Positions 60 to 19,674 of a stretch of 39,812 nt of DNA are shown here, in pieces (the first letter of the stretch is position 1; each line of letters begins with the position of its first letter). Source of the DNA: Candidatus Poriferisocius aerobius. Lineage in GTDB: Bacteria > Actinomycetota > Acidimicrobiia > Acidimicrobiales > Bin134. Location: contig JAPYOC010000165.1 of NCBI GenBank assembly GCA_028278955.1, positions 1 through 39,812 of the forward strand, written 5' to 3'. Both the position numbers and the translations under genes were made by a program. The notes below the pieces were generated by a model, which had not been told where the DNA came from, searched no databases, and was given only the letters and a program-made list of their open reading frames with translations.

Positions 60-517
<458 letters not shown>

Positions 518-521
<4 letters not shown>

Positions 522-1342
522 TTCCTGCGGCATTCGACTACATCCGGGCCGGATCGGCCGAAGAGGCGCTGGCCGCGCTGGCCGAGCACGGCGACGAGGC
601 CAAGCTGCTGGCCGGCGGCCACTCCCTTTTGCCGCTGATGAAGCTGCGGCTGGCCACCCCGGCGGTGCTGGTGGACATCGGCCGCCTCGGCGACCTCAGC
701 TACATCAACGACGCTGGCGACCACTTGGCCATCGGGGCCCTCACCCGCCACCGCGACATCGAGGTCAGCGATCTGGTGCAGTCGCAGGCCGGGCTCTTGG
801 CCGAGGCCACCAGCCATGTGGGCGATCCTCAGGTGCGCCACCGGGGCACCATCGGCGGATCGATCGCCCACGGCGATCCGGCATCCGACCTGCCTGCGGT
901 GATGCTGGCCATGCGGGCCACCCTGGTGGCCCGGGGGCCGGGCGGCGAGCGGGAGATCGCGGTGGACGACTTCTTCACCGGTTTTTTGGAGACCGCGCTC
1001 GGCGACGACGAGTTGCTCACCGAGATCCGGGTGCCCAAGATGCCCGAGGCCACTTGGGGTTTCCAGAAGTTCAACCGCCGGGCCCAGGACTGGGCCATTG
1101 TGGGCGTGTCGGCCGTTGTGGCCAACGGCAGCGCCGGCTTGGGCTTGGTGAACATGGACAGCACCCCTGTGCGGGCTGCCGGGGTGGAGACGGCTCTGGC
1201 CGGGGGCGCATCGGCTGCCGACGCCGCCGAAGCAGCCGCCGAGGGCACCAACCCGCCATCCGATCTGAACGCCGGACCCGAGTACCGGGAGCACCTCGCC
1301 CGGGTGCTCACCCGTCGGGCGCTTGAAGCCGCTGGGCGCTAG
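518..1342 (+). CDS. coxM: Molybdenum hydroxylase FAD-binding medium subunit (CoxM-like)
   Basis: This 274-residue FAD subunit accepts electrons from the FeS subunit. Both FAD-binding loops sit where they do in CoxM: AGGHS at residues 32-36 and TIGGS at 111-115. The C-terminal half is the CO dehydrogenase flavoprotein C-terminal domain. I chose the ATG at 518 because it overlaps the upstream stop as ATGA and gives the family N-terminus [13 protein letters not shown]; an in-frame start at 455 would only add coxS shadow. No large subunit follows: the next gene is the MoxR ATPase. The catalytic subunit must be upstream of the window or elsewhere. Confidence 0.95.
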
Positions 1343-1389: not shown

Positions 1390-2304
1390 ATGGGCTCTGA
1401 GCCCGCCTCAGCAGCCGAGGTAGCCGACGGCTTGGCGAGCTGCGACTACCTGGCCGACGAGGGGCTGGCCACGGCCGTGTTCTTGGCCATGACCCTGAAC
1501 CGCCCCCTGCTGCTGGAAGGCGAGCCCGGCGTGGGAAAGACCGAGACGGCCAATGCCCTGGCCTCTTGGACCGGCGGGGAGCTGATCCGCCTCCAGTGCT
1601 ACGAGGGCATCGATGTGGCTCAGGCGGTGTACGAGTGGGACTACTCCCGCCAGCTCCTGCACCTGCGCACCGCCGAGGCCACCGGCACCGCCGCCCGGCA
1701 GAATGCGGAGGCGCTCGAAGACGAGCTGTACTCCGAGCGCTTCCTCATCAGGCGCCCCCTGCTGCGGGCCATCGATGCTGCCGAGGGTCCGCCGCCGGTG
1801 CTGTTGATCGACGAGGTGGACCGGGCCGATGACGAGTTCGAGGCCTTCCTGCTGGAGATACTGTCGGACTATGCGGTGACCGTGCCCGAGGTCGGCCGCT
1901 TCGCGGCCGCGACCCCTCCCCGGGTCATCATCACCTCCAACCGCACCCGCGACGTCCATGACGCCCTCAAGCGGCGCTGTTTGTACCACTGGGTAGAGCA
2001 CCCCGGTTTTGAGCGGGAGGTGGCCATCATCGGCCGCCGGGCGCCCGGGGTGGGCGAGGCGCTGGCCCGGCAGGTGGCCGCCGCGGCTGCCGCCTTCCGG
2101 GAGTTGGGCCTGTACAAGCCGCCCGGCGTGGCCGAGAGCATCGACTGGAGCCTGGCCTTGGGCCGCCTCGGGGCCGCCGAGCTGACTCCCGAGATCACCC
2201 AGGCCAGCCTGGGGTCGGTGCTCAAGTACCGCGAAGACCAGCAGCGGGTGGTGGATCAGGGAATCGGCGGCCTGATCAACCAGGCCATCGCCCGGGCCGG
2301 ATGA
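1390..2304 (+). CDS. coxD: MoxR-type AAA+ ATPase, CoxD-like
   Basis: This 304-residue AAA+ protein of the MoxR family has Walker A GEPGVGKT at residues 44-51, Walker B LLIDE at about 138-142, and a sensor segment ITSNRTRDVHDALKRRC around 178-194. In known cox clusters CoxD acts with the VWA protein CoxE as a chaperone that matures the molybdenum active site. The position directly after the FAD subunit and before a VWA gene matches that arrangement. The ATG at 1390 lies 47 bp after coxM; I see no strong ribosome site, so the exact start is less sure than the identity. Confidence 0.9.
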   Translation: MGSEPASAAEVADGLASCDYLADEGLATAVFLAMTLNRPLLLEGEPGVGKTETANALASWTGGELIRLQCYEGIDVAQAVYEWDYSRQLLHLRTAEATGTAARQNAEALEDELYSERFLIRRPLLRAIDAAEGPPPVLLIDEVDRADDEFEAFLLEILSDYAVTVPEVGRFAAATPPRVIITSNRTRDVHDALKRRCLYHWVEHPGFEREVAIIGRRAPGVGEALARQVAAAAAAFRELGLYKPPGVAESIDWSLALGRLGAAELTPEITQASLGSVLKYREDQQRVVDQGIGGLINQAIARAG

Positions 2305-2349: not shown

Positions 2350-3480
2350 GTGCAGGCTGACGAACTGGCGGTTGGCTTCGCCAATGCGCTGAGGGGCGCG
2401 GGCATCGATGTGGCCGTAGGGTCTTCGGTCAACTACTGCCAAGCGCTCGGCGCGGTGGGCCTAGGGCAGCGCAGCTCGGTGTACTGGGCCGGCCGGACCA
2501 CCATGGTCACCGATCCTGAAGACATCGGGCTTTATGACAAAATCTTCGATGCCTACTACGGCGGACAGCAGCTGGTGGCCACTCCGGTGGTGGAGGTGGT
2601 CCAGCCCATCATCCTGGCGACCGACGACGACGGCGACGACGAGGCCGGAGACGGCGGTGGCGATGACGACCCCGGCGGTCCCTCCTTCACGCTGCGGTGG
2701 AGCCGCCACGAGGTGCTGCGCGACAAGGACTTCGCCGATTGCGACGACGACGAGCTCGACGAGGCTCACCGGCTCATGGCCGCCATGGCCCGCGTCGGCG
2801 GCACCCGCCGGTCTCGCCGCCGACGTCGTACCCGCCGAACCGTCGGGCACCCCGAATTGCGCCAGACGGTGCGGGCCGCCATCCGCAGTGGCGGAGAGCC
2901 GGTGCGGCGCTGGTACACCGAGCCGGGCCAGCGATTGCGCCGGGTGGTGCTGCTGCTGGACGTCTCCGGGTCGATGGAGTCGTATGCCCGGGCGCTTATC
3001 CGCTTCGTCCATGCCGCGGTGGTGGGCCGCCGACGGGTGGAGGTGTTCACCATCGGTACCCGGCTGACCCGCATCACCCGAGAGCTGTCATCGCGCGATC
3101 CCGACCGGGCGCTGAGCGAGGCGGCCGACGCGGTGAGCGACTGGTCGGGCGGCACCCGCTTGGGCGACGCCCTGGCCGAGTTCAACGATCGGTGGGGCAT
3201 CCGGGGCATGGCCCGGGGAGCAACCGTGGTTGTCTTGAGCGACGGCTGGGACCGGGGAAGCCCCGAGGTGATGGCCGAGCAGATGGCCCGGTTGCACCGG
3301 GTGACCCATAGACTCGTCTGGGTGAACCCGCTGAAGGCCACCCCCGGCTACCAGCCTCTGGCCCAAGGCATGGCCGCCGCCCTGCCCCACGTTGACGACT
3401 TCATCGAGGGCCACTCGCTGCGCTCGCTGGAGCGGCTCGCTGCGGTGCTGGAGTCGAACCAGTCGATGGGAAGAGGATAA
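2350..3480 (+). CDS. coxE: VWA-domain protein, CoxE-like
   Basis: This 376-residue protein is the partner of the MoxR ATPase in molybdenum hydroxylase maturation. It has an N-terminal CoxE-type region, a very acidic spacer around residues 90-110, a basic patch at about 152-163 (RRSRRRRRTRR), and a VWA domain with the metal-ion-dependent adhesion site D204-x-S206-x-S208 followed by a VVVLSDGWDRG strand-loop. The GTG at 2350 is the first usable start after an in-frame stop at 2332; no clear ribosome site precedes it. The family usually begins close to this point. The last base of the stop is the first base of the next ATG (TAATG). Confidence 0.88.
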   Translation: MQADELAVGFANALRGAGIDVAVGSSVNYCQALGAVGLGQRSSVYWAGRTTMVTDPEDIGLYDKIFDAYYGGQQLVATPVVEVVQPIILATDDDGDDEAGDGGGDDDPGGPSFTLRWSRHEVLRDKDFADCDDDELDEAHRLMAAMARVGGTRRSRRRRRTRRTVGHPELRQTVRAAIRSGGEPVRRWYTEPGQRLRRVVLLLDVSGSMESYARALIRFVHAAVVGRRRVEVFTIGTRLTRITRELSSRDPDRALSEAADAVSDWSGGTRLGDALAEFNDRWGIRGMARGATVVVLSDGWDRGSPEVMAEQMARLHRVTHRLVWVNPLKATPGYQPLAQGMAAALPHVDDFIEGHSLRSLERLAAVLESNQSMGRG

Positions 3481-3794
3481 TGAAGGAAATCCTGGCCGAT
3501 CTGGACGCCTGGCGGGACGAGGGCCGACGAGTGGCGCTGGCCCGGGTGGTGAACGTGGAGGGCTCAGGCCCCCGCGACCCCGGAGCGGCTATGGCGGTCA
3601 GCGACAACGGCGATGTGGTTGGATCGGTGTCGGGAGGCTGCGTGGAGGGCGCGGTGGTGGGCGAAGCGCTCGATATCCTCCAAACCGGTGAGCGCCGCAT
3701 GGTGAGTTTCGGCTACAGCGACGACGAAGCCTTCGCGGTGGGGCTCACCTGCGGGGGAACCATCCACCTTTTCATCGAGCCTCTGGACTGGTGA
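3480..3794 (+). CDS. XdhC/CoxI-family small protein
   Basis: This 104-residue protein corresponds to the XdhC_CoxI N-terminal domain alone. The conserved VVNVEGSGPRDPGAAMAV, VSGGCVEGAVVGEA and LTCGGTIHLFIEPL segments are all present. XdhC-family proteins bind molybdenum cofactor and help insert its terminal sulfur before delivery to the apoenzyme. The start is coupled to the VWA gene stop. It is not a broken fragment: a separate, full XdhC homologue with its own N-terminal domain follows, so this cluster has two XdhC-type proteins, like the CoxF/CoxI pair of known cox operons. Confidence 0.88.
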   Translation: MKEILADLDAWRDEGRRVALARVVNVEGSGPRDPGAAMAVSDNGDVVGSVSGGCVEGAVVGEALDILQTGERRMVSFGYSDDEAFAVGLTCGGTIHLFIEPLDW

Positions 3795-3858
3795 GAACGG
3801 TGCGCCGTCGTCAACGGGTGCGCTTCGGAGCCTCCTGCGAGCGTCGAGATTGGTAGCG

Positions 3859-4659
3859 GTGTCCGAACTCTACGACCGGCTCCGGGATGCCATCACCGAT
3901 GAGCGCCCGGTGGCGCTGGCCACCGTCATCGAAGGCCGCAACGCCGGGGCCAAACTGGTGGTCGAGCCCGACGGCGACGTCCTCGGAACGCTGGGGCATC
4001 TGGAGCTGGACCGGATCGTGAGCCGCGACGCGGTGGGGGAGCTGGCCGCGGGGCGCACCGGCGTGCGCCACTACGGGGCTGAGGGCCAGGCTCGGGAAAC
4101 CGACGTTTCGGTGTTCATAGAGTCGTTCTCGCCCCCGCCGATCATGCTTGTCTTCGGCGCGGTCGACTTCACCGCTGCGCTGGCCCGGGCCGGCAAGCTG
4201 CTGGGTTTCAACGTGGTCGTGGCCGACGCCCGCTCGGTGTTCGCCACCGTCAAGCGGTTCCCCATGGCCGACCGGGTGATGGCGGCCTGGCCTGATGAGG
4301 TGTTCGACGCCTACGGCTACCGGCTCGGCCCCCACGACGCGGTGTGCATCCTCACCCACGACCCAAAGTTCGACGTTCCCGCCGTGCAACGGGCGGTGGC
4401 CACCGATGTGGGCTACATCGGGGTCATGGGCAGCCGGCGCACCCACGCCACCCGACTGGAGCGACTGCGCGAGGTGGGCGTAGATGAGAAGAGCATCGAC
4501 CGGCTCATGGCCCCCATCGGGCTGGACATCGGCTCGCGCACCCCCGAAGAGACCGCTGTCTCGGTGTGCGCCGAGATAATCGCCAACCGAACCGGCCACT
4601 CCGCTCCTTCGCTGCGCGACGGCGAAGGCCCAATCCACCGCCCGTCGGCCGAGGGATGA
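3859..4659 (+). CDS. XdhC-family molybdenum cofactor sulfuration/delivery protein (CoxF-like)
   Basis: This XdhC homologue of about 266 residues has an N-terminal XdhC_CoxI-like part (ALATVIEGRNAGAKLVVEPDGDVLGTLG) and a C-terminal Rossmann-type XdhC_C domain with IMLVFGAVDFTAALARAGKLLG, ILTHDPKFD and YIGVMGSRRTHATR. It would chaperone and sulfurate molybdenum cofactor for the enzyme encoded upstream. I prefer the GTG at 3859; a TTG nine bases upstream at 3850 is also possible, and neither has a good ribosome site. The stop overlaps the ATG of the DUF3179 lipoprotein as ATGA. Confidence 0.88.
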   Translation: MSELYDRLRDAITDERPVALATVIEGRNAGAKLVVEPDGDVLGTLGHLELDRIVSRDAVGELAAGRTGVRHYGAEGQARETDVSVFIESFSPPPIMLVFGAVDFTAALARAGKLLGFNVVVADARSVFATVKRFPMADRVMAAWPDEVFDAYGYRLGPHDAVCILTHDPKFDVPAVQRAVATDVGYIGVMGSRRTHATRLERLREVGVDEKSIDRLMAPIGLDIGSRTPEETAVSVCAEIIANRTGHSAPSLRDGEGPIHRPSAEG

Positions 4660-6011
4660 AGCGCAGCCGGTGGGCTCCGGTGAACAGGTTCAATTCCCTG
4701 GCCGGGACGGGCGCTGCCAACAAGCGCCTCGCCCCCCTGATGGCGGCAGCGCTGGTGCTCTTGTCCTGCGGCAGCTCCGACCCCGCCGCCTCGCCGGTGG
4801 CGCCGACGGCGCTGGCCGCAAACGAGGTCGAAGCCACGGCAGCACCTGAGCCTCCCGCCGCTCCGCCGGCTGCGGCGCCCCCGGCCCCGGCCACAGTGCC
4901 GCCGGTTGCCCAGCCCACGGCCCGGGTCGTAACCGGGGGCGACGGGCCCTCTGGGGAGCTGCGCTTGGTGTCGGATGATTGGGCCACCGACTGGTCCACC
5001 CGCACCATCGGCCTCGACGAATTGCGCATCGGCATTCAGGCGGTCCCCATCCGCGACCGCATCCCGCCCATCGACAGCCCGGAGTTCTCCCCTGCGGCAG
5101 AAGGCGGATGGGCCGACCCCGAGCCCGGCCTGCTGCTGGTGGTGGGCGAAACCGCCCGCTTCTACCCGCTGGCCATGCTCATCGTCCACGAGATCGTCAA
5201 CGACGAGATCGAGGGCCGCCCCGTGCTCGTCACCTACTGCCCGCTTTGCAATAGCGCGCTGGTGTTCGACCCGGTGGTCGACGGCCGGCGACTGCGATTC
5301 GGCACCTCGGGCCTTTTGCGCCACAGCGACCTAGTGATGTGGGACGACGCCACCGAGTCTCTCTGGCAGCAGATCGGCGGAGAGGGCCTGGTGGGGGCCT
5401 ACGCCGGCCATCGCCTGGACGTCGTCCCATCAGCCATCGTGTCGTGGCGGAATTTCAAGGCCGGCTATCCCGAGGGGGTGGTGCTGGCCCCGCCCGGTCG
5501 CCCGGCCAGCAGCTACGGCCGCAATCCCTATGTGCAGTACACCTCTCGTTCGGCGCCGATCCCCGGTTTTTTCGACTCCACCATCCTGGACGACCGCTAT
5601 CCCGCCTTGGAGCGCACCGTCGGCGTGACGGTGCGCGGCCGATACAAGGCCTATCCGTTCAGCGCGGTGCAGGCCGTCGGCGCGGTGAACGACACCGTGG
5701 CCGGGGTTCCGGTGGTGGTGCTGTGGGCACCGGGCACCGCCGATGCGCTGGACTCGTCCTCCACCGCGGGCGGGGCGGACGTGGGGGCGGCGTTGGCCTT
5801 CGACCGGCGGGTAGAGGGCGAGCCGTTGGAGTTCGCCCCGGCGGGCGACGGGCGGTTCACCGACGACCGCACCGGCTCGATGTGGAATGTGCTCGGCCAG
5901 GCGGTGGGGGGAGAGCTGGCCGGCAGCCGGCTTGAGCCGGTTGTGCACACCAACGAGTTCTGGTTCGCCTGGTCGGCCTTCCACCCCGATGGCGAGGTGT
6001 TCGCCCCATGA
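4656..6011 (+). CDS. DUF3179-family lipoprotein
   Basis: This 451-residue protein begins with a basic n-region and a hydrophobic segment ending in LVLLSCGS, a lipobox with Cys38. A low-complexity Ala/Pro linker (about 45-90) follows, then a DUF3179 domain marked by VTYCPLCNSALVF, RFGTSGLLRHSDLVMWDDATESLWQQ and a C-terminal TGSMWNVLG segment. The DUF3179 family has no assigned reaction. I chose ATG 4656 because it is coupled to the XdhC stop and exposes the signal peptide; the frame opens earlier at 4566. It should be anchored outside the cytoplasmic membrane, which is odd inside a cytoplasmic cofactor-maturation operon. Confidence 0.88.
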   Translation: MKRSRWAPVNRFNSLAGTGAANKRLAPLMAAALVLLSCGSSDPAASPVAPTALAANEVEATAAPEPPAAPPAAAPPAPATVPPVAQPTARVVTGGDGPSGELRLVSDDWATDWSTRTIGLDELRIGIQAVPIRDRIPPIDSPEFSPAAEGGWADPEPGLLLVVGETARFYPLAMLIVHEIVNDEIEGRPVLVTYCPLCNSALVFDPVVDGRRLRFGTSGLLRHSDLVMWDDATESLWQQIGGEGLVGAYAGHRLDVVPSAIVSWRNFKAGYPEGVVLAPPGRPASSYGRNPYVQYTSRSAPIPGFFDSTILDDRYPALERTVGVTVRGRYKAYPFSAVQAVGAVNDTVAGVPVVVLWAPGTADALDSSSTAGGADVGAALAFDRRVEGEPLEFAPAGDGRFTDDRTGSMWNVLGQAVGGELAGSRLEPVVHTNEFWFAWSAFHPDGEVFAP

Positions 6012-6045
6012 TGGTCGGTGCCGAGCTGAGGGGGCGGGTGCGGCC

Positions 6046-6603
6046 ATGACCATTGCCGCCGTCGTGCTGGCCGCTGGTGCCGGAACCCGGTTCGGAGGCG
6101 CCACCCACAAGCTGCGGGCCCCGTTTCGGCAGAAGACCGTGGTGCGACACGCCCTCGACGCCGCCGTGGAGGCCGACCTAGAAGCGGTGTACATCGTGAC
6201 CGGGGCGGTGGAGCTGCGCGACCTCATCCCCGACGGTGTCGTTTTGGTGGAGAACCATTCTTGGGAGCTGGGCCAGGCCGCCTCGCTGCGAGCCGGCGTG
6301 TTCGCGGCGGAGCACGACGGCTACGATGCCGTGGTGGTCGGGCTGGGCGATCAGCCTTTGGTGGGGGCTCAGTCGTGGCGGGCGGTGGCCGAGGCGGGGG
6401 GCGACTTGGTAACCGCCGTCTATCGGGGCCGCCGCAGCCCGCCGGTGAAGCTGGGGGCGGCCGTGTGGCCGCTCTTGCCCACCAGCGGGGACGTCGGGGC
6501 CAGAATGCTCATGCGAATGAGGCCCGAGCAGGTTGTGGAAGTATCCTGTGGCGGAGACCCGGTGGATTTCGACACGGCTGAGGACTTGGCAGCATGGTCC
6601 TGA
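6046..6603 (+). CDS. Molybdenum cofactor nucleotidyltransferase (MobA/MocA-like NTP transferase)
   Basis: This 185-residue nucleotidyltransferase of the MobA-like NTP_transf_3 family starts with the signature AAVVLAAGAGTRFGG (residues 4-18) followed by HKL, and has the metal/nucleotide segment VVVGLGDQPLV. Members of this group attach CMP or GMP to molybdopterin; xanthine dehydrogenase/CO dehydrogenase-type enzymes normally carry the cytosine dinucleotide form, so a CTP-using MocA role is likely. The ATG at 6046 is favoured because the family signature starts immediately after it; upstream in-frame sequence lies inside the DUF3179 gene. Confidence 0.88.
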   Translation: MTIAAVVLAAGAGTRFGGATHKLRAPFRQKTVVRHALDAAVEADLEAVYIVTGAVELRDLIPDGVVLVENHSWELGQAASLRAGVFAAEHDGYDAVVVGLGDQPLVGAQSWRAVAEAGGDLVTAVYRGRRSPPVKLGAAVWPLLPTSGDVGARMLMRMRPEQVVEVSCGGDPVDFDTAEDLAAWS

Positions 6604-6650: not shown

Positions 6651-7301
6651 ATGGAGATGAGCAACGAGATCGAGGTGAAGGCAGCGGCTGGCGATGTTTG
6701 GGCCGCTTTCAACGATGTGGAGCGAATCGCTCCCTGCCTGCCCGGCGCCCAGCTCACCGAGATCGAGGGCGAGGAGTATCTGGGCCTGGTCAAGGTCAAG
6801 GTGGGTCCGGTCAACGCCCAGTACAAGGGCAAGGCCACGTTTGTCGAGCGCGACCAAGAAGCCATGAAGGTGGTCATCTTGGCCGAGGGCCGGGAGACCC
6901 GGGGGCAGGGGAACGCCAGCGCGCAGATCACCGCCACGGTGGAGCCTCTGAGCGACGACCGGACCAAGGTGGAGGTTGCCACCGACCTCAAGATCACCGG
7001 CAAGGTCGCTCAGATCGGCCGCAACCTCATCCCCGACGTGAGCGCAAAGATCATGGAGCAGTTTGCCGACAACCTGGAAACCATGCTGTCTGCCCCTGCA
7101 GAAGACTCCTCCTCCGGCGAGGGTGCTTCCTCTGACGAATCAGACGGCCGGGCGGTGTCGAGCCCCGAGCCCGAAGCGGTTGACTTGTTGGAGGTGGCCG
7201 GCCCTCCAGCGGCCAAGAAGTTCGGCCCTGTTGCCGGTATCATCGCCGCCTTGTGGATCGTCAGGAAGATCTTCAAGAGAAAGAAGAAAAAGAAGGTCTG
7301 A
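6651..7301 (+). CDS. coxG: CoxG-like SRPBCC protein with basic membrane tail
   Basis: This 216-residue protein has an SRPBCC (CoxG/carbon monoxide dehydrogenase subunit G) domain over residues 1-145, starting EMSNEIEVKAAAGDVWAAF and including ERIAPCLPGAQ. A Ser/Glu-rich linker (about 147-180) follows, then a hydrophobic stretch FGPVAGIIAALWIVRKI and a lysine/arginine tail KRKKKKK. In studied cox systems CoxG links the soluble dehydrogenase to the membrane and its quinone pool. The hydrophobic-plus-basic tail fits a membrane anchor with the basic end in the cytoplasm. GGAGG ten bases upstream supports ATG 6651. This gene closes the molybdenum hydroxylase operon. Confidence 0.92.
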   Translation: MEMSNEIEVKAAAGDVWAAFNDVERIAPCLPGAQLTEIEGEEYLGLVKVKVGPVNAQYKGKATFVERDQEAMKVVILAEGRETRGQGNASAQITATVEPLSDDRTKVEVATDLKITGKVAQIGRNLIPDVSAKIMEQFADNLETMLSAPAEDSSSGEGASSDESDGRAVSSPEPEAVDLLEVAGPPAAKKFGPVAGIIAALWIVRKIFKRKKKKKV

Positions 7302-18499: not shown

Positions 18500-19674
18500 C
18501 CATGTTGACCGACGACCTGCTGGAGTCGTTCGAAGACTCGACCACCGACGTGGCCACTGCGGTGACCCTGCCCCCCGAGATTTACACTTCCGAGGAATTT
18601 CTGGCCTTCGAGCGCCGGGCGCTGTTCGAACAGGAGTGGTGCTGCGTTGGGGTAGCCAGCCGGATCCCCGAGGCCGGCGACTGGTTCACTGCCACGGTGG
18701 GCACTGAGCCGGTCATCGTGGCCCGCCAGAGGGATGGCGCCATTCGGGCCTTCTCGGCCGTCTGCCGCCACCGCGGCATGCAGGTGGTGGAGGGGGAGGG
18801 CAACGGACGCTCGTTCCGATGCCCCTACCACCACTGGAGCTATCGCCTGGACGGTCGCCTGATGGGAGCCCCGGCTATGGAGCGCACCCAAGGTTTCGAC
18901 AACGACGACTGGGGCCTGCCCAATCTGGCAGTTGAGCTATGGCACGGCTTCATCTTCGTCAACTTCAACTCCGAGGCATCGCCGCTGGCCCCCACTCTGG
19001 AGCGGTACGAGCCCTACCTCGCCAACTACGGGCTCGACAGCTGCGTGTGCCCGGGCACCTTCACGCTCCATGACCTCCCCTGGAACTGGAAGGTCATGTT
19101 CGAGAACTTCAACGACGGCTACCACGCCAACCGCCTCCACCAGGTGATCCAGGACTTCTGCCCCTCGGAGATGGCTCGGTTCCCGGTGCCGTGGTCGGAC
19201 GACTCCAACGTGATCTTCCGGGAGAACGGCTACACCCATATCGACGGCGGGTTCAATGCCACCCGCAAGGCCCTGTTGCCGGTGTTTCCCAAGCTGACCG
19301 AAGAGGAGAGGTGGCGGTCTACCTTCGCGCTGATCCCACCCGCTCTTTGTTTCGGCACCGCCCCCGACATGGCGTTCTTTTTCATTGTGCGGCCCACCTC
19401 GGCCGAGACCATCGACGTGGAGATCGGCTATCTGCTGCACCCCGACTCGCTGGAACATCCCATGTTCGATCACTTGTTGCAGGCCAGCGACGACGGTGTG
19501 CAGGTGTTCGTGGCCCAAGACCAAGATGCCACCACCAAGGTCCAGCGGGGTTTGCGGTCCAGGTTCGCGGTGCGGGGCCGGTATTCCTGGCAGGAGGAAA
19601 CCCACGTGCAGTTCAACCGCTGGCTGGTGCGGCGCTACCGCCAGCACTGGCCCGGGGGGCACGGCCGCTTCTGA
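18496..19674 (+). CDS. Rieske aromatic-ring-hydroxylating/N-demethylating oxygenase alpha subunit
   Basis: This 392-residue Rieske non-heme iron oxygenase has cluster ligands Cys90-x-His92 and Cys109-x2-His112 and mononuclear iron ligands His210 and His215 in ENFNDGYHANRLH, with Asp207 as the electron bridge. A later Asp in the QVFVAQDQDATTKVQRGL region completes the facial triad. The C-terminal GRYSWQEE-QFNRWLVRRY pattern is typical of alpha-only enzymes, which include ring hydroxylases and demethylases of quaternary amines. AGGAGG precedes the ATG, which overlaps the ligase stop as ATGA. No reductase or ferredoxin is encoded in the window, so the electron donor must come from elsewhere. Confidence 0.93.
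   Translation: MTMLTDDLLESFEDSTTDVATAVTLPPEIYTSEEFLAFERRALFEQEWCCVGVASRIPEAGDWFTATVGTEPVIVARQRDGAIRAFSAVCRHRGMQVVEGEGNGRSFRCPYHHWSYRLDGRLMGAPAMERTQGFDNDDWGLPNLAVELWHGFIFVNFNSEASPLAPTLERYEPYLANYGLDSCVCPGTFTLHDLPWNWKVMFENFNDGYHANRLHQVIQDFCPSEMARFPVPWSDDSNVIFRENGYTHIDGGFNATRKALLPVFPKLTEEERWRSTFALIPPALCFGTAPDMAFFFIVRPTSAETIDVEIGYLLHPDSLEHPMFDHLLQASDDGVQVFVAQDQDATTKVQRGLRSRFAVRGRYSWQEETHVQFNRWLVRRYRQHWPGGHGRF

Follow-up and report, generated by a model that had tools for sequence, protein, structure and literature searches.

The 39,812-nucleotide contig JAPYOC010000165.1 of Candidatus Poriferisocius aerobius (hereafter, the window; it makes up the entire contig C74 in a draft genome of 2.48 Mb) carries, among the genes for maturation of a molybdenum hydroxylase, a gene of the DUF3179 family (PF11376), the only one in that genome. 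Its product is predicted to be an exported lipoprotein. The explanation favoured here, which we believe and doubt in about equal measure, is that it is an internally duplicated, Rieske-like lipoprotein with a CxxC redox pair, fed with electrons by TlpA/CcdA, whose gene was captured into a cox/xdh operon. A thiol-redox role of the protein, taken by itself, is rather probable.

The DUF3179 gene in its operon

The 451-residue product matches the DUF3179 profile over positions 1-291 of 292 with 296.5 bits, far above the Pfam gathering cut-off of 27, and thus belongs to this family. The original prediction had treated the gene as a true operon member, and this is borne out by the junctions and by the relatives. 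The ATG of the gene (4656-4658) shares the letters ATGA with the TGA stop of the XdhC_C-encoding frame (4657-4659), and the MocA-like gene (PF12804) begins at 6046, 34 bp past the DUF3179 stop. A DUF3179 match is present in 21 of the 21 same-genus relatives searched, and the XdhC_C-DUF3179-MocA order, with both flanks on one locus, was found in 18 of these 21 genomes. Two further genomes agree with this order, which is broken at contig edges: the two sides of the locus lie on separate contigs in G005 (L047, L027), and in the 1.8-Mb genome G016 the XdhC contig ends 131 bp past XdhC and the DUF3179-MocA-CoxG contig starts 978 bp before the DUF3179 frame. In G017, which is 68% complete, only a distant partial copy was detected. 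The ATGA overlap was seen at 15 of the 19 measurable xdhC-DUF3179 junctions, the window included (those without it are L010, L016, L022 and L023). The dN/dS of the DUF3179 domain was 0.11-0.18 in the eight usable pairs of 20 comparisons, ten of the others being unmatched by the domain pattern and two saturated.

A second, distant DUF3179 match covering about 210 of the 292 profile positions was also observed in some same-genus genomes (L045, L046; G007, G015, G018, G019, G020); L029, the same gene as L046 and thus a second same-genus copy, has the motif CTLC.

The export and lipid anchoring that had been proposed for the product are likewise upheld at the level of prediction. Its N-terminus reads as a bacterial lipoprotein signal peptide with the lipobox LLS-C38, and this pattern recurs in 19 of the 21 genus copies, the exceptions being L016 (pattern unmatched) and L027 (incomplete sequence). 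The protein is thus predicted to be held through C38 at the outer face of the membrane.

The cysteine pair and the predicted fold

The window protein contains three cysteines, C38 of the lipobox and the pair C195 and C198 in the sequence CPLCNSA. Both members of the pair were retained in 38 of 38 profile-found copies, mostly the best-scoring ones, and H178 and E179 in all 37 of the Cys-type copies among them that have a residue there. In the larger alignment A2 the motif is conserved in 77 of 77 copies, but partly by construction, because these loci were found with patterns containing CxLC or HE..ND; the conservation argument therefore rests on the 38 profile-found copies. Of the strictly kept CPLCxSA noted earlier, the cysteine pair stands, whereas in wider relatives the motif relaxes to CxLC (for example CTLC, or U-P-L-C if an in-frame UGA is read as selenocysteine). 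In L170 (1 of the 38 copies) the motif is CPLCH, a chance CXXCH, due to H in place of N199, which would be taken for a cytochrome in haem-motif scans.

The first cysteine is the position of natural exchange. In all five TGA-flagged copies from same-phylum genomes the UGA falls precisely at this codon, and it is directly followed by a GC-rich sequence that can form a hairpin tipped by GGUCC. The hairpin resembles the bacterial SECIS pattern; it lies within the minimum-energy fold in four of the five copies (L189 folds differently), and in L192 both sides of the stem are changed, that is, it is a compensated variant. The UGA thus probably encodes selenocysteine in these five relatives, all of which have R at the position of H178. 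The window copy has TGC at the corresponding codon (5238-5240) and is not a selenoprotein of this kind. At the same time, SelD scored above its family cut-off in four genomes, G027, G014, G048 and, on two contig pieces, G000; in all but G027 the match contains one in-frame TGA (G000:C175:15197-15526, L143 in G014 and L142 in G048). Selenophosphate synthetase thus seems to be a selenoprotein itself in the window's genus and order, and selenocysteine may be in use in the window's organism. No tRNA gene was found beside selD in three short loci, a search of these loci only and no test of the genomes.

The earlier suggestion that the motif binds a redox group thus survives as a redox-active CxxC/UxxC, on the strength of the UGA with its SECIS-like hairpin in five relatives and of the CcdA/TlpA neighbours described below; a c-type haem is not indicated, the window motif being CPLCN, with no CXXCH.

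Profile comparison showed the mature part of the protein to be an internal duplication of one domain: hhalign of repeat 1 against repeat 2 gave 99.5% (E 5.5e-23), against at most 4.3% for ten unrelated families. The AlphaFold2 model has a mean pLDDT of 89.7 for residues 91-451 and of 95.2 for the N-terminal repeat alone. Among the domain matches, Foldseek ranked Rieske ferredoxins and NirD best, with probabilities reaching 1.00 at E values of 0.03 or above, and all 50 rows listed by VIA for each of the two models were Rieske-fold proteins, with best Z of 8.6 for the whole model and 9.3 for the N-terminal repeat, falling to 7.0 and 7.4 at rank 50. The repeats are therefore assigned to the Rieske fold on predicted structure. 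The [2Fe-2S] ligands CxH...CxxH are absent from the window protein, which has neither CxH nor CxxH and whose second repeat is free of cysteine; a sequence search for a homologue of solved structure returned none, its single row having E 0.93. Judged from the order of the strands, CPLC would lie in a hairpin turn with H178 opposite C195, and probably away from the cluster-ligand site.

Gene neighbourhoods and competing explanations

The original prediction had called for a survey of DUF3179 beside molybdenum hydroxylase genes in other genomes, and the association was recovered across one genus and not beyond it. The scan of genome contigs gave at least 582 confirmed relatives. Among the matches listed were 80 loci retrieved by the patterns mentioned above, with flanks of up to 10 kb (shorter at many loci, which are short contigs) and genes called by a custom-made scorer. 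Cox-cluster genes were present at seven of these 80 loci, all seven from the window's genus, and cox-gene profiles run over the available flanks of the remaining 73 found cox/XdhC genes at none. The coxD match at L070 (1e-05) was set aside as a generic AAA+ match. In 70 genomes of the phylum, 53 of which carry the XdhC_CoxI domain (PF02625), this domain lay within 20 kb of none of the 109 DUF3179 places (0.27 expected within 3 kb); the count used 85 PF02625 places, second matches inside one gene being excluded, and omitted the window's own DUF3179 place. The chance expectations given here are based on rounded genome sizes and ignore contig ends.

In the tree, the six cox-linked rows form one clade (100/100), located in a 26-row, mostly Acidimicrobiia group (99/95) that includes the CcdA-linked L060. 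The records of the clade are Acidimicrobiia or bacterial metagenome bins, and isolate names suggest a sponge habitat for it. Four same-order genomes keep the order of xdhC and mocA, with a coxG match in three, but between these two genes lies different sequence that includes long ORFs on the opposite strand; in L133, L136 and L137 the opposite-strand ORFs in the XdhC_C-MocA gap are alike by eye (LLGGGLS(V/A)(I/V)GP...). Because the cox-linked rows form a single clade, the non-genus loci are without a cox link and the same-order genomes have another filling of the xdhC-mocA slot, it looks as if DUF3179 was captured once into the cox/xdh maturation operon of one genus. Its placement has been conserved there, and the coupling may therefore be useful in that genus.

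The strongest alternative, a serious rival, is that the gene is a passenger: a protein with an unrelated extracytoplasmic job whose gene landed in a well-transcribed operon, where co-transcription is tolerated without any link to the molybdenum enzyme. The single capture clade, the lack of any cox/XdhC link outside the genus and the changing content of the xdhC-mocA slot all fit this explanation, to which we assign slightly less than an even chance. Against it stand the order visible in 18 of the 21 relatives, the overlap at 15 of the 19 junctions and the purifying selection on the domain; the contig edges of G016 are also consistent with the gene's placement.

The candidate electron donor emerged from the neighbours in other lineages. 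CcdA (PF02683) was located within 3 kb of 13 of the 109 DUF3179 places, in 8 families, where 0.41 would be expected by chance, and within 6 kb of 16 (10 families). Of the 73 listed non-genus loci, five (Acidimicrobiales, Rubrobacter, Chloroflexi) have a CcdA-like gene within two genes of DUF3179. Among 25 loci that were inspected, 20 of them chosen for CcdA proximity, 13 have both a TlpA-type redoxin and CcdA; two of the loci, L060 and L079, had seeded the TlpA model. Both genes were also present at L192, a UGA copy chosen independently of CcdA. Pfam searches with example neighbours returned Redoxin and DsbD_TM matches. The Rubrobacter locus L079 has, in a row, TlpA, CcdA, a small ORF with a sub-cut-off thioredoxin match, and DUF3179. 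Thus, CcdA or TlpA adjoins DUF3179 in several lineages; in the window's genus the pair lies elsewhere in the genome (G000, G007 and G014, all three genomes inspected), and a PF02683 search of six same-genus genomes gave a single match in each. The CcdA signal comes from a minority of the loci. No family holds a majority in a Pfam tally of 127 proteins at positions +1/-1 of the non-genus loci, the largest groups being ABC ATPases (11), DUF3516 helicases (6), Crp-type regulators (6), GDSL lipases (5) and pyridine nucleotide oxidoreductases (4), and DsbD_TM is outside the 25 families listed there. Tandem triple DUF3179 ORFs were observed at the Chloroflexota loci L075, L100, L111, L116 and L129, several of them flanked by ABC transporter genes.

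According to the favoured explanation, the lipoprotein would be exported and anchored through C38, and its mature part would consist of two Rieske-like beta domains without iron-sulphur ligands, as the predicted structures suggest. The N-terminal repeat would bear the single redox pair C195-P-L-C198, with C195 the likely nucleophile because five relatives have UGA there, and the cysteine-free C-terminal repeat would probably be structural or substrate-binding. The pair would be kept reduced by a TlpA-type lipoprotein receiving its electrons via CcdA, a route suggested by the presence of such genes beside DUF3179 in other lineages and, as a separate pair, in the genus; the substrate would probably be a disulfide, a peroxide or another oxidised compound outside the membrane. 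Since the gene is part of the maturation operon and overlap-coupled to xdhC, its product should be made together with the molybdenum hydroxylase.

A role at the membrane together with CoxG, as originally envisaged, is not supported. In Oligotropha, work with mutants led to the proposal that CO dehydrogenase is brought to the inner membrane face by CoxG (PMC4240915), whereas the DUF3179 protein is predicted at the outer face; a direct role in maturation is therefore hard to picture, and a direct chemical role in molybdenum-enzyme maturation is judged unlikely.

Several observations weigh against the favoured explanation as a whole. Foldseek gave no match at E 0.001 or better, and the Rieske relationship is unrecognised by sequence profile: hhalign gave 4.4% and 14.4% against 23 Rieske domains (of 29 loci, six were skipped because of stops or absence of the motif from the cut stretch), and there is no Pfam Rieske match. 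One of the loci of this comparison, L204, comes from the window itself, where a long downstream ORF has a Rieske domain match at 18634-18894 (4.5e-21). According to VIA's own warning, best Z values of 7-8 are often reached by unrelated proteins; the Rieske argument is therefore based on how uniform the lists are and on the match of the two repeats to one fold. As for the donor, the CcdA-like protein at L192 has no Pfam match and those at L179 and L060 are below the DsbD_TM cut-off, CcdA lies beyond 3 kb or on another contig for 96 of the 109 DUF3179 copies, and the TlpA-CcdA pair of the window's genome is not linked to DUF3179. Finally, H178 is kept in 37 of 37 copies, so that a metal site is possible in the Cys forms.

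The latter point leads to a second alternative, in which C195, C198 and H178 form an extracellular binding site for copper or another metal and serve to buffer or deliver it, perhaps as copper for a CO dehydrogenase. It accords with the CxxC and with the nearness of H178 to C195 indicated by hairpin geometry (from the strand limits of the model), and the CO dehydrogenase of Oligotropha has a Cu-Mo centre for which a copper-handling maturation model has been put forward (PMC4240915). The five relatives with UGA for C195 have R in place of H178, however, and the CcdA/TlpA neighbours suggest thiol exchange. The large-subunit-like ORF observed in the cox cluster of L135 (G045, same order) carries AYRGAGR, which we take to be a motif of non-copper type. 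Metal handling is, on balance, quite improbable.

Even less credible is that the protein passes electrons of the molybdoenzyme outward by means of a haem (c-type) or an iron-sulphur cluster (Rieske-like). The Rieske-like predicted fold would suit it, and a table of proteins with CXXCH from an Idiomarina strain includes one DUF3179 protein (PMC9230427), an entry that a chance match of the CPLCH type may explain. The cluster ligands are absent, however, as are cysteines in repeat 2, and CXXCH is missing from the window protein and found among the 38 profile-found copies in L170 alone. A sensor lipoprotein reporting redox or substrate state to the cell can be given equally little credence, as surface anchoring and conserved thiols would suit it without anything direct in its favour, and Pfam finds no signalling domain in the DUF3179 protein and nothing of the signalling kind in the adjacent operon genes.

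Features of the window and comparison with known systems

The features of the locus are collected in Table 1. The window's XdhC homologue is divided between two ORFs, the first with XdhC_CoxI alone and the second with XdhC_CoxI plus XdhC_C. Beyond coxG, the genes continue with DUF501 and an ORF that is presumably ppx/gppA-like; the contig begins at coxS, and coxL of the operon is outside it. A 13-codon ORF at 6008-6049, spanning both the DUF3179 stop and the MocA start, is probably due to chance.

Table 1 Coordinates of the DUF3179 gene, its parts and its operon neighbours in the window
Feature	Position	Strand	Evidence
DUF3179 (PF11376) lipoprotein gene, 451 aa	4656..6011	+	ORF, ATG to TGA; PF11376 2.9e-88
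Predicted lipoprotein signal peptide, lipobox LLSC, C38 codon 4767-4769	4656..4769	+	Sequence, cysteine positions
N-terminal repeat, residues 154-280, predicted Rieske-like, with CxxC	5115..5495	+	AlphaFold2 pLDDT 95.2; VIA Z up to 9.3
CPLCNSA motif, C195 and C198	5238..5258	+	Sequence; both Cys in 38/38 profile-found copies
C-terminal repeat, residues 316-448, predicted same fold, cysteine-free	5601..5999	+	hhalign 99.5%, E 5.5e-23; VIA rows 236-357, Z up to 8.1
XdhC_CoxI domain ORF	3480..3794	+	PF02625 4.3e-26
XdhC (XdhC_CoxI and XdhC_C Rossmann), stop overlapping DUF3179 start	3850..4659	+	PF13478 4.2e-42; PF02625 7.4e-12
MocA-like nucleotidyltransferase	6046..6603	+	PF12804 1.2e-26; TIGR03310 97.8 bits, below cut-off 186
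CoxG-like SRPBCC protein, C-terminus hydrophobic, lysine-rich	6651..7301	+	PF06240 6e-22; C-terminal residues
CoxS-type 2Fe-2S subunit of molybdenum hydroxylase	60..521	+	PF01799 1.8e-33; PF00111
CoxM-type FAD subunit	518..1342	+	PF00941 8.9e-52
CoxD-type AAA+ ATPase	1390..2304	+	PF07728 1.3e-12
CoxE-type VWA protein	2350..3480	+	PF05762 3.9e-60

In a more general form, the results raise the possibility, held at clearly less than even confidence, that DUF3179 is an unrecognised class of extracytoplasmic thiol/selenol oxidoreductases, with a duplicated Rieske fold that has lost its cluster and with CxxC/UxxC, fed by TlpA-CcdA, and coupled in this genus to the production of a molybdenum hydroxylase, so that the enzyme and a repair or detoxification step facing the outside would be produced together. 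Despite the wide occurrence of the family, the available parts of the open-licence literature searched mention it only in selenoprotein and CXXCH tables, and no earlier report of its fold, of a CcdA/TlpA link or of the operon capture was found in that literature. Assays of the family would become possible with a fold assignment, a candidate electron donor and a likely catalytic residue, the last of these marked by the natural exchange of Cys and Sec. The reuse of an iron-sulphur electron-transfer fold for thiol chemistry would be of interest to structural biologists, and the operon capture provides a case in which co-expression across the membrane can be tested.

DUF3179 has previously been listed as a selenoprotein family. 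It figures as UxxC/T in two reviews (PMC9312934, PMC13188914), one of which cites a 2007 study of an Olavius symbiont; the window protein is matched over the whole domain and has CxxC where some members have selenocysteine, but it differs in carrying Cys, and its placement in a cox/xdh operon was unseen outside the genus in the samples searched.

Both predicted repeats match the Rieske [2Fe-2S] fold of dioxygenase ferredoxins and Rieske oxygenases, and that of NirD, which is itself a case of this fold without a cluster. Unlike Rieske proteins, DUF3179 has no cluster ligands, is duplicated in tandem and gives no significant profile match, and its CxxC would probably sit at a distance from the ligand loops, in the turn of a hairpin. 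The TlpA/CcdA extracytoplasmic thiol-disulfide pathway is similar in the predicted outer-face CxxC and is represented among the recurrent neighbours of DUF3179; the DUF3179 protein differs in not having the thioredoxin fold, and the genes are unlinked in the window's genome. Finally, the operon resembles the cox cluster of Oligotropha carboxidovorans (coxBCMSLDEFGHIK, PMC4240915) in coxS, coxM, coxD, coxE, an XdhC/CoxF-like gene and coxG, but the gene list given there names no DUF3179, whereas the window has DUF3179 and a MocA-like gene between xdhC and coxG.

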